From NCBI GenBank assembly GCA_030649335.1, contig JAUSLL010000003.1, positions 1-64,000 of the forward strand: a stretch of 64,000 bases of DNA, written 5' to 3'. This stretch comes from Parvibaculum sp. GTDB taxonomy: Bacteria > Pseudomonadota > Alphaproteobacteria > Parvibaculales > Parvibaculaceae. Positions 17,637 to 41,326 of the stretch are shown here, piece after piece. Each line of letters begins with the position of its first letter. The first letter of the stretch is position 1. Under the pieces are notes generated by a model. It did no database searches. It saw only the letters and a list, made by a program, of their open reading frames with translations, and was not told where the DNA came from. Made by a program: the position numbers and the translations under genes.

Positions 17637-17738
17637 GGTGCGATCTGCTAATCCCTTCAATTCATGTGGGTTTTACGGCTCGTTTCGTAAAATCAGCCGT
17701 CATGGATGAAGTTGAGAACATGTCAGTTTGGCGACGCT

Positions 17739-17753
17739 TTAACAGTTTGGTAA
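17739..17753. promoter_or_regulatory. CtrA-type box upstream of rcdA
   Basis: TTAA-N7-GTAA, one base short of the TTAA-N7-TTAA consensus for the response regulator CtrA. It is upstream of both the candidate small RNA and rcdA. RcdA controls CtrA breakdown, so a CtrA site here would form a feedback loop; this is inference. Confidence 0.4.
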
Positions 17754-17764
17754 GTATGGGGTGC

Positions 17765-17873
17765 TAGGATGACCTTGCGTAATCCAGTGTTCCTGGATGT
17801 GAGTGGTTCACTCCACTCTGTTTGACGCCTCCCTGTTAGAACTGAGCCGCGGCTGTTCCGCGGCTCTTTTTTT
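17765..17873 (+). ncRNA. candidate small RNA upstream of rcdA
   Basis: The 370-base gap between the DUF1192 and rcdA genes holds a CtrA-like box (17739), then about 100 bases with no supported reading frame and an internal hairpin ATCCAGTGTTCCTGGAT, ending in a strong intrinsic terminator (17844-17873). A promoter, a structured stretch and a terminator together are what a small RNA gene looks like. The transcript start is not determined. It could instead be a terminated leader, since the terminator lies 134 bases before the rcdA start. Confidence 0.35.
17844..17873 (+). terminator. intrinsic terminator
   Basis: GAGCCGCGG-CTGTT-CCGCGGCTC followed by eight T residues: a 9-bp perfect stem with a U-tract. 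Confidence 0.9.
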
Positions 17874-36280: not shown

Positions 36281-36284
36281 CACG

Positions 36285-36445
36285 GGTACTGCCTGGCTCG
36301 TCAGGAACACATATATCTCGGGGCCTTACGATTCTTTAGGGAGTTGTCCCTGGTTGAGGCCGTGGCCTCTGTCACACGACGCCCACCTACAAATGTAGGT
36401 CTCCGAGAATCACGTTTCCAACGGCCAAGGTGGTCCCACTTATCC
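36285..36445 (+). ncRNA. ssrS: 6S RNA
   Basis: About 160 bases between zapA and the 5-formyl-THF cyclo-ligase gene, the standard 6S location. Features match the family: a terminal stem-loop GAGGCC-GT-GGCCTC, the 3'-side central-bubble hairpin ACCTAC-AAAT-GTAGGT, an inner closing helix GATTCT/AGAATC and an outer GGGGCCTT/AAGG..CCC helix. 6S RNA mimics an open promoter and holds sigma-70 RNA polymerase. Exact ends are estimates, based on the promoter at 36249 and the outer pairing. Confidence 0.82.
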
Positions 36446-37890: not shown

Positions 37891-39156
37891 ATGACGCAAC
37901 AGGCAGACGTAGGGAAGGACTGGAAAGCAGAACTCGGCGATACATTGCGCCTGTTCCGTCAGCCCGAAAGCGTTGCCTTTGCAGTTCTTGTCTCGCTTGC
38001 CACATGGGCGAGCGTGCTTGCTCCCCGCGTTCTTGGCATCGTTATGCCCGTGGCGGCGGCTTGCGCCTTCATCGGTGCCACACGTTTTCGCCAGCGCATG
38101 CGCATGCCTGCGATGGATTCTGAAATCTGGTGGGTGTGGGCGGTCGTCGTGTCGCTTGTTGGTGTGTCCGCCACATGGTCACCGGATTACGCATACGGGC
38201 TTGAACGCTCGGCCAAGATCGCCAGCAGCTTTGCGATGGGCATTTTCCTCTATTTTCTTGCGAGCGAATTATTTGTCGTGCATCGCGCGCAATTGCGCCG
38301 TTTGCTATTGGCGAGCTTCATTTTCGCGGTGTTGCTGATCGCCGTTTATATGCTGAGCGACGATGTCGTCGTCCGGCGTGTCATGGGTGGTAGCGATCTT
38401 GATGATGCGGCTGTCGGTGCCAACCGCGCCGCTGTGGTGCTGGCGACTCTTCTCTGGCCGACACTTCTTGCCGCCATCGAAGCCGGTCACCGCCGCGTCG
38501 CATGGGCCTTGCCCTTTGTCACTCTGGCTGCCGTGTCGCTCACCTATAGCCAGACCGCGCCCGTTGCGATTCTTGCGGGCCTCATTGTTCTCGTTGTCGC
38601 GCATTTACTGCCGCGCGCTGCCTTGTGGCTCGTCGCGCTCGGCGGTGTCGCGCTCGTCCTGCTGATGCCGTTTTTCTTTCTCAACACCTGTCCGGCTTTG
38701 CTGCAAGAAAACATCAGCTGGGCCGCGGCGGCGGCAGCGGGCGAACGCATCGAAATCTGGTGTGCGGTCAGTGCCCGAGTGCCTGATGATATTTTCTTTG
38801 GTCATGGCATTGAGGCGGCGCGCTTCGTGAACGATTGGGGCATGGAGCATATCTATTTCAAACCTGACGGCATTTTGCATCCGCATAATGCGGCGTTGCA
38901 GGTCTGGTATGAATTCGGCGCGACAGGGGCGTTTATCGCGTCGCTCATCTGGTGCGGTCTTGTGTGGCGCATCGCCTATCTCGGGCCGCAGGCGCGCGCC
39001 ATATGTCTTGCTTCAATTGCTGGAATCGTCACGGTTGCTTGCATCAGTCACGGGCTTTGGCAAAGCTGGTGGCTTGGCACGGTCGGCATCGTGCCTGCCT
39101 TGTTCCGCATGATTGCGGGGCCGGTCTGGTTCAAAGCGCGGGAGGTCTTGCCGTGA
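37891..39156 (+). CDS. O-antigen ligase/polymerase family membrane protein
   Basis: A 421-residue protein with about ten membrane helices and one large periplasmic loop (about 270-340) holding ERIEIWCAVSARVPDDIFFGHGIEAARF and LHPHNAALQVWYEFGATG. The H-P-H-N-A-x-L-Q-x-W-Y-E motif in that loop is diagnostic of the Wzy_C/WaaL family (PF04932), which joins O-antigen to lipid A core or polymerises it. The next gene starts within its stop (GTGA overlap), so it works with that glycosyltransferase on a surface polysaccharide. Confidence 0.85.
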   Translation: MTQQADVGKDWKAELGDTLRLFRQPESVAFAVLVSLATWASVLAPRVLGIVMPVAAACAFIGATRFRQRMRMPAMDSEIWWVWAVVVSLVGVSATWSPDYAYGLERSAKIASSFAMGIFLYFLASELFVVHRAQLRRLLLASFIFAVLLIAVYMLSDDVVVRRVMGGSDLDDAAVGANRAAVVLATLLWPTLLAAIEAGHRRVAWALPFVTLAAVSLTYSQTAPVAILAGLIVLVVAHLLPRAALWLVALGGVALVLLMPFFFLNTCPALLQENISWAAAAAAGERIEIWCAVSARVPDDIFFGHGIEAARFVNDWGMEHIYFKPDGILHPHNAALQVWYEFGATGAFIASLIWCGLVWRIAYLGPQARAICLASIAGIVTVACISHGLWQSWWLGTVGIVPALFRMIAGPVWFKAREVLP

Positions 39157-40181
39157 AGATCGTGATTGTCGGCAATTACAACGAAAAGAAAGCGGGCGCG
39201 AATTTCTACGCGACCGTGCGCAAACTCGGCAACGGCTTCACGCGTAACGGTCATGCGGTGCTTGCCTATAGCGACCGCGATGTGGCGCGCGCCCAGAGCG
39301 CATGGGGCATAGGCCGCGCCGGTCCGCGCAAGGCCAATCGCCAGCTTGTCGATATCGCGCGTGATTTTCGACCCGACCTTATTGTCATGATGCATGCCGA
39401 CCAGATCGCCAATGACACATTGCGCGAAATCAAAGGCCTGCTGCCCGACCTCAAAGTCGCAGGCGTCAACCTTGATCCGATTTTCCTCACCGAAAATCCA
39501 CCGCGTATCAAACGTCTCGGCGATGTCGCCGACATCACCTTCATCACCACCGCAGGCGACGTCATCTCGCAATTTGCGACGCCGACGCATCGCATGGCCT
39601 TCATGCCCAATCCGACCGACCGCTCGGTTGAGGGGCTTGAGTGTTTTGCCCGCAGCGATCAGTCCGTCGATCTTCTCTGCAGCATCGGCAGCGAAAAGGG
39701 CACACCGTGGCGCGCTGATGCCATGCGCGGGCTCAAGGCGGCGGTGCCTGAGGCGCGTTACGGGTTCTATGGCATTGACGGCAAGGGGCCGGTGTTCGGC
39801 GCGGGCTATTTCGATGCCATTGCGGATGCGCGCATGGGGTTCAATCTCAATCGCTCGGACGAGGATTATCTCTATTCATCCGACCGGCTGGCACAATTTG
39901 CGGGCAATGGCTTGCTGACCTTCGTCGCCCGCTCCAGCGGCTATGGCGATATTTTCGGCGACGACGAATTTGCCTTTTATGACGGGTCGGAAGATCTCGC
40001 GCAGAGGTTGCGTCACTTTCTGGCGAATGATGCCGAGCGTCGCAGCGTGGCTGAGAAGGGCCATGCGAAATATCACGCGCTTTTCAACGAGCGCATCGTC
40101 GCCCGTTTTATCGTCGAGGCGACATTCCGGCGCCACGTCGAGCGTGACTATGTCTGGCCGACCAAGGTTTACGGCGGCTAA
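39153..40181 (+). CDS. glycosyltransferase (GT-B fold, CgeB-like)
   Basis: A 342-residue protein starting with GTG inside the ligase stop (4-base overlap). The N terminus, KIVIVGNYNEKKAGANFYATVRKLGNGFTRNGHAVLAYSDRD, is a Rossmann-like GT-B opening. The C-terminal half has MGFNLNRSDEDYLYSSDRLAQFAGNGLLTFVARSSGYGDIFGDDEFAFYDGSEDLAQRLRHFLANDAERR, the layout of Glyco_trans_1_2 (CgeB/spore-coat type) enzymes. It probably adds a sugar to the polysaccharide handled by the adjoining ligase. The sugar is unknown. Confidence 0.78.
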   Translation: MKIVIVGNYNEKKAGANFYATVRKLGNGFTRNGHAVLAYSDRDVARAQSAWGIGRAGPRKANRQLVDIARDFRPDLIVMMHADQIANDTLREIKGLLPDLKVAGVNLDPIFLTENPPRIKRLGDVADITFITTAGDVISQFATPTHRMAFMPNPTDRSVEGLECFARSDQSVDLLCSIGSEKGTPWRADAMRGLKAAVPEARYGFYGIDGKGPVFGAGYFDAIADARMGFNLNRSDEDYLYSSDRLAQFAGNGLLTFVARSSGYGDIFGDDEFAFYDGSEDLAQRLRHFLANDAERRSVAEKGHAKYHALFNERIVARFIVEATFRRHVERDYVWPTKVYGG

Positions 40182-40206
40182 GCACCTGATTTCCTGACTT
40201 CTTTTG

Positions 40207-40390
40207 GCAGAAATGCGCCTCGCCCATGACATTCGAGGTGGGCGAAATGTCGTGGACGAGGCGCGATGGCCAACGCTTTCTGCGATGGCGGGGCCGGAGC
40301 CGTGGGTTTGGGCGGGACCACGAAACCGGCACTTCTGCGATGTGTTCCCGCCCGAACGGTGGGCTGCCGTTCGTGGTGAGCGGGAACATC
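40207..40390. other. strongly structured non-coding segment (three consecutive hairpins)
   Basis: In the 395-base gap before yebC, I see (1) a multi-tier stem: GCAGAAA/TTTCTGC enclosing GCGCCTCG/CGAGGCGC enclosing GACATT/AATGTC, 40207-40283, with CGCCCA/TGGGCG as an alternative inner pairing; (2) GCCGG..CGTGG/CCACG..CCGGC, 40293-40330; (3) GATG-t-GTTCCCGC..CGAACGG/CCGTTCG..GCGGGAACATC, 40339-40390. TTCTGCGATG occurs twice, at 40279 and 40334. No reading frame is convincing. It could be a 3' UTR RNA, a stand-alone RNA or a palindromic DNA repeat. Confidence 0.6.
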
Positions 40391-40410
40391 CTCACAGTAG
40401 GTCCGAATCA

Positions 40411-40425
40411 TTAAATACACGTTAA
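40411..40425. promoter_or_regulatory. perfect CtrA box upstream of yebC
   Basis: TTAA-ATACACG-TTAA matches the full CtrA consensus TTAA-N7-TTAA. It is followed by AT-rich TATATAAAG (40431-40439), a possible -10 region, 140 bases before the yebC start. Confidence 0.5.
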
Positions 40426-40576: not shown

Positions 40577-41326
40577 ATGGCTGGCCATTCACAATTTAAG
40601 AACATCATGCATCGCAAGGGCGCTCAGGATAAAAAGCGCTCTAAGATATTTTCCAAACTCGCCAAGGAAATCACCGTGGCGGCCAAATTGGGCTTGCCAG
40701 ACCCAGCGTTTAACCCGCGTTTGCGCTCGGCCATTCTGGCGGCGCGTGCCGAAAACATGCCACGCGACAATATCGAGCGCGCTGTCAAAAAGAGCGCCGA
40801 TCAGGGCGGCGAGAATTACGAAGAGGTGCGCTACGAGGGTTTCGGCCCCGGTGGTGTCGGCGTCATCGTCGAATCACTGACCGATAACCGCAACCGCACG
40901 GCCAGCTCCGTCCGCTCGCTCTTCACCAAGAACGGCGGCAATCTGGGCGAAACAGGTTCGGTCTCCTTCATGTTCACGCGTCTCGGCCAGATCGACTTTG
41001 CCGCTGACGTGGCCGACGCTGACACCATGCTCGAAGCCGCCATTGAGGCGGGTGCCGAGGATTGCGTGTCGGGCGAGGAGGGCCACGAGCTTTTCTGTGA
41101 GGCCGAAGCGCTGCACGAAGTTGCCCGTGCGCTTGAAGCCAAATTCGGCGAACCGAAATCGACCAAGATCATCTGGAAGCCGCAGAACGCCATCGAAGTG
41201 GACGATGAGAAAGCTGAATCGCTCGTCAAATTGCTTGAAGCGCTGGACGACGATGATGATGTGCAGCAAGTTTATTCAAACTTCGAGTTGTCCGATTCGA
41301 TGATGGAAAAGATGTCGGCCTCTTAA
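40577..41326 (+). CDS. yebC: YebC/PmpR family DNA-binding protein
   Basis: A 249-residue protein starting [32 protein letters not shown], the near-invariant family N terminus, with [42 protein letters not shown] in the middle domain. Members are described as transcription regulators and, more recently, as aids to translation of difficult sequences. The ATG at 40577 has GGTGGAG before it. It is upstream of ruvC, the classic order. Confidence 0.94.

Follow-up and report, generated by a model that had tools for sequence, protein, structure and literature searches.

A predicted small RNA of Parvibaculaceae encoded divergently from yebC behind a CtrA-type box

The folded segment at positions 40207-40390 of the window (the whole stretch of 64,000 nucleotides of Parvibaculum sp. 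DNA analysed here) is best explained, with a probability of about 0.8, as an undescribed small-RNA gene of Parvibaculaceae that would run leftward from a promoter near 40390-40425 to a strong hairpin at 40215-40264, and whose loops may regulate in trans under CtrA-type timing. This reading is built on sequence comparison, namely on the single copy, the shared genomic site, covariation, strand asymmetry, conserved unpaired loops, a unique upstream box, and the joint loss of RNA and box in one relative (G020). The segment is intergenic, with a glycosyltransferase gene on one side and yebC on the other, both encoded on the plus strand. The features of the locus are as follows:

39156-40181, plus strand: glycosyltransferase gene (Pfam Glyco_trans_1_2, E 6.5e-17), convergent with the RNA
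40205-40390, minus strand: predicted small RNA gene of ~180-185 nt (covariance models R1/R2 and fold z-scores); predicted 5′ end near 40388-40391, predicted 3′ end near 40205-40214
40215-40264, minus strand: hairpin 4, a long 3′ stem and likely terminator stem, loop CGCCCACCTCG (40234-40244); helices 6 and 7, 9 of 15 pairs with double-sided changes
40269-40289, minus strand: hairpin 3, short, GCC..GCAGAAAGC..GGC; helix 5, mostly without sequence change and paired in 94 % of cells
40291-40332, minus strand: hairpin 2, loop CCGCCCAA (40308-40315), predicted unpaired; helices 3 and 4, 6 of 10 pairs with double-sided changes
40342-40390, minus strand: hairpin 1 (core), apical loop CAGCCCACC (40358-40366); helices 1 and 2, 10 of 12 pairs with double-sided changes
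40396-40401, minus strand: possible -10 element CCTACT (GCTACTAC or TATACT in relatives)
40405-40409, no strand assigned: GANTC site (CcrM methylation type) in the gap that separates the box from the predicted start
40411-40425, minus strand: CtrA-type box TTAACGTGTATTTAA (TTAA-N7-TTAA), a motif match upstream of the RNA
40577-41326, plus strand: yebC (Pfam TACO1/YebC domains), divergent from the RNA

On either strand, the folding energy of the segment lies far beyond that of dinucleotide shuffles, at -98.0 kcal/mol (z -5.1) for the plus strand and -96.2 kcal/mol (z -7.3) for the minus strand, neither of which is reached by any of 200 shuffles. This result and the presence of the long stem GCGCCTCGCCCATGACATT/AATGTCGTGGACGAGGCGC bear out the structured segment proposed in the first-pass annotation. 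Three hairpins had been counted there; the structure stands, but the hairpins number four and the relevant strand is the minus strand. Hairpins 1, 2, and 4 of the RNA carry C-rich apical loops, and hairpin 3 is short. Two further details are present in the window as described, but not shared by relatives: the window copy alone has the 10-base direct repeat TTCTGCGATG twice (at 40278 and 40333), and the repeat is absent from the 19 homologues; the CGCCCA/TGGGCG alternative pairing, put forward as a switch, could form in no more than 2 of 20 copies. Neither is thus a conserved feature.

Covariation was assessed in an alignment of 20 copies (A7) that was built from sequence alone and was thus structure-blind. 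Standard pairs occupy 85.6 % of its cells, and double-sided changes occur in 26 of the 43 base pairs as compared to 16.6 in shuffles, with 0 of 500 shuffles equalling any of the five measures; these shuffles ignore kinship, and the two measures based on counts are more dependable. When the partners were slid by 1-3 columns, the pairs with double changes fell to 8-17, a control that is somewhat flattering because the structure was drawn up partly from A7 itself. In APC-corrected mutual information over the 20 sequences, noise from variable columns prevailed; structural pairs were no more than enriched, with a median rank at about the top 13 % and not one of them among the first 100. Together with synteny and the single copy, the covariation makes a conserved structured RNA gene a well-supported reading of the segment, in line with the regulatory RNA that had been considered at the outset. 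In keeping with an sRNA, the segment is a stand-alone conserved RNA structure that is intergenic and non-coding.

Homologues at the same site were recovered by BLAST in three congeners (72-75 % identity). At E < 0.001, a covariance model of the minus strand (R1) matched 18 family genomes, counting the four copies on which it was trained. In each of them, the RNA stands before yebC and points away from it, and in the genus g1 the glycosyltransferase gene flanks its far side. Since synteny played no part in the search, it independently confirms these matches. With a second model of 20 sequences (R2), the RNA was found in 19 of 27 Parvibaculum genomes and in both genomes of the genus g2, in addition to a weak match beside yebC in the genus g5. 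Four genomes (G009, G010, G017, and G019) come without an assembled yebC upstream region, and the RNA is present in 19 of the 23 testable Parvibaculum genomes. Among 385 alphaproteobacterial genomes, nothing convincing was detected outside the family, the two weak matches having neither a conserved loop nor a yebC neighbour. A DNA pattern for hairpin 4, scanned over a collection of 84,980 species, returned 13 full-length RNAs, each of which belongs either to Parvibaculaceae or to a MAG contig that matches a family genome; the remaining matches comprised hairpin 4 alone. In G020 (locus L073, 1300-1504), both RNA and box have been lost next to a yebC that is 92 % identical, the closest among those compared, and both are decayed in G012. 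The natural loss in G020 offers a strain for direct comparison. Lack of conservation in relatives and many copies at unrelated sites, which had been named as grounds for abandoning a regulatory RNA, were both examined and neither was found. No Rfam 15 family exceeded its gathering cut-off for the segment and 14 homologous loci (permissive settings gave sub-threshold chance matches only), and a literature search found no sRNA study of Parvibaculum and no yebC-linked sRNA. Different C-rich minus-strand segments, strongly folded, occupy the same site upstream of yebC in g5 (L079, L080) and g4 (L088, L089), and a yebC-divergent RNA may accordingly be older than the covariance model can trace.

Because the segment precedes yebC, stays beside this gene in relatives, and also folds well on the plus strand, a riboswitch or attenuator in the leader of the yebC mRNA could be envisaged, an orientation that the first-pass annotation had implied. 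We nevertheless consider such a leader unlikely. Raw folding energies do not separate the strands; by z-score, 19 of 20 copies favour the minus strand (mean -4.8, as compared to -2.6 for the plus strand), which is better than its own shuffles in all 20. Read as minus strand, the alignment contains 80 G-U cells versus 45 A-C cells, the T content after the final stem is higher (with a terminator in g5, see below), and the box stands at the 5′ side, all of which favours the minus strand for the RNA and hence an orientation divergent from yebC. Moreover, the alternative pairing expected of a switch is not conserved, and the yebC of G020 persists without the segment. Quite unlikely, too, is a mere 3′ end structure or bidirectional terminator of the convergent glycosyltransferase gene with no RNA product of its own: while the hairpin at 40215-40264 is located ~35 nt past the stop codon of this gene, one hairpin would suffice for such a function, whereas there are four here, with conserved loops and their own upstream box. 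In addition, no T-tract follows the stem on the plus strand, and the RNA is present in g2 and g5, in whose fetched flanks no glycosyltransferase homologue was found. The GCGCCTCG..CGAGGCGC hairpin forms the 3′ end of the minus-strand RNA and is probably its terminator, which renders the earlier verdict of "not a terminator" doubtful. The window RNA has no canonical U-tract terminator, its tail CATTTCTGCC being poor; a clear U-tract is seen in g5 only, where the equivalent hairpin ends in GGCGGGGTTTTT and represents a real terminator.

That the segment encodes a small protein is very unlikely, although a 37-codon plus-strand frame with an ATG is open at 40266-40379 (MANAFCDGG...VGCRSW), as the three nearest homologues lack this ATG and, among the 20 copies with their frame-breaking indels, the longest ORF on either strand measures anywhere between 0 and 61 codons. 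The strong inverted repeats might also be taken for a palindromic or mobile DNA element, the other suggestion made at first, which appears hardly tenable given that each genome has a single copy and the site never changes (one copy in the 3.54-Mb source genome by a genome-wide search), that stems covary while loops stay fixed, and that there is no phage match.

For the small-RNA gene, the box at 40411-40425 provides a candidate regulatory input. The box TTAACGTGnnnTTAA, or its pattern TTAACGTGNNNTTAA, occurs exactly once per genome in G000, G002, G003, and G023, always at the RNA site, and a reversed control pattern has zero matches in these genomes. In Caulobacter, TTAA-N7-TTAA has been described as the full CtrA motif, and position -39 is reported for the activation of ctrA P2 by CtrA (PMC4287350). 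The 5′ end of the Parvibaculum box is ~36-39 nt ahead of the predicted RNA start and thus close to this position; as far as the sequence goes, the RNA would belong to a CtrA regulon, with a TTAA-N7-TTAA motif at activating distance from the predicted start. The source genome encodes a CtrA that is 83 % identical to the Caulobacter protein. Of the 20 copies, 14 carry the full TTAA-N7-TTAA and three an imperfect version, and G011 and g2 lack it, so that CtrA control is not universal; the box of G026 has a spacing of six, and in g2 a TATACT hexamer stands where others carry the box. As the box is nearly symmetric, it could serve yebC as well, which is disfavoured by G020, where yebC is kept without RNA and box, and by the decay of both in G012. 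A sigma-70 scan of the window yielded no consensus promoter for the RNA. The GANTC site is found in the same place in ~9 of 20 copies. The RNA is probably under cell-cycle control. In most relatives (L053, L046, L049, L092, and others), a conserved inverted repeat like ACACGCATAACGTGTT is located ~20-30 bases upstream of the box; in the window it is eroded. This repeat may act as an operator, either of yebC or of the RNA.

The three C-rich apical loops share the same unpaired motif (GCCCA, GCCCA, and CCCACC), are mostly unpaired in the predicted ensemble, and are nearly invariant, ranking among the most conserved parts of an alignment with a mean identity of 60 %. Across the copies, loop 1 reads YGCCCA (or CAGCCCA), loop 2 CGCCCA, and loop 4 CCCACC or ACCCACCUCGG, with the core CCCAC of loop 4 invariant in 20 of 20; the exceptions are from g2, where loop 1 is without the motif and loop 2 is GCCAAA. 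The recurrence of one short motif in three separate loops suggests that the molecule repeats a binding site for other RNAs or for proteins. When the loops were paired with the ctrA leader, two of five genomes gave better values than shuffles (p ~0.04 each); the source genome did not, and ctrA is unsupported as a target there. Sites complementary to loop 4 ahead of an ATG amount to 4-7 matches per genome, from which no target was identified.

Among known sRNAs, CcnA of Caulobacter crescentus is similar by description, as it comprises ~180 nt, is preceded by a CtrA box, and acts through a C-rich (CCCC) loop, and is located in the replication origin (PMC8959179). The Parvibaculum RNA is likewise alphaproteobacterial and shares the length, the CtrA-type box, and a C-rich loop. 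However, all Parvibaculum copies are flanked by the glycosyltransferase gene and yebC, nothing origin-like was noted at the locus, and the RNA displays CCCA in three loops instead of CCCC. Given the different location and the unsupported ctrA leader pairing in the source genome, we do not file it as CcnA. PmaR of Agrobacterium uses an accessible C-rich loop on one spoon-like stem for target pairing and is restricted to few related genera (PMC6234868). The likeness extends to the alphaproteobacterial origin, the accessible C-rich loop, and the confinement to few related genera, whereas one stem with one loop in PmaR contrasts with four hairpins and three C-rich loops here. The AbcR and alpha-r families of Rhizobiales are trans-acting sRNAs with anti-Shine-Dalgarno type sequences. 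They come from the same class of bacteria, but the Parvibaculum RNA matches no Rfam model at threshold, permissive settings included. AbcR1 is also mentioned in the literature on PmaR (PMC6234868).

In the proposed mechanism, an RNA of ~180 nt would be transcribed from the minus strand away from yebC, with its transcription timed by CtrA or another TTAA-N7-TTAA-binding factor, perhaps acting together with CcrM methylation. The C-rich loops would then pair with G-rich mRNA sites, for example, ribosome-binding sites, and several targets could conceivably be regulated in trans. More speculatively, and with rather less than even odds, the RNA might be a lineage-specific cell-cycle sRNA that is switched on by CtrA and, with CCCA in three loops at once, acts on G-rich mRNA sites or on an RNA-binding protein, be it by regulating through multiple sites or by serving as a sponge, which would make it an independent parallel to CcnA. 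As a previously unlisted sRNA family, the candidate shows covariation that could sustain an Rfam entry; the invariant loops supply pairing motifs that can be tested directly, and the upstream box makes it possible to test whether small-RNA control is tied to the CtrA cell-cycle circuit in bacteria other than Caulobacter.

Two known RNAs are also encoded in the window: 6S RNA (Rfam RF00013, 70.9 bits) at 36283-36440 on the plus strand, four kilobases upstream of the RNA segment, and the alphaproteobacterial sRNA BjrC1505 (RF02356, 64.8 bits) at 17731-17873, likewise on the plus strand.
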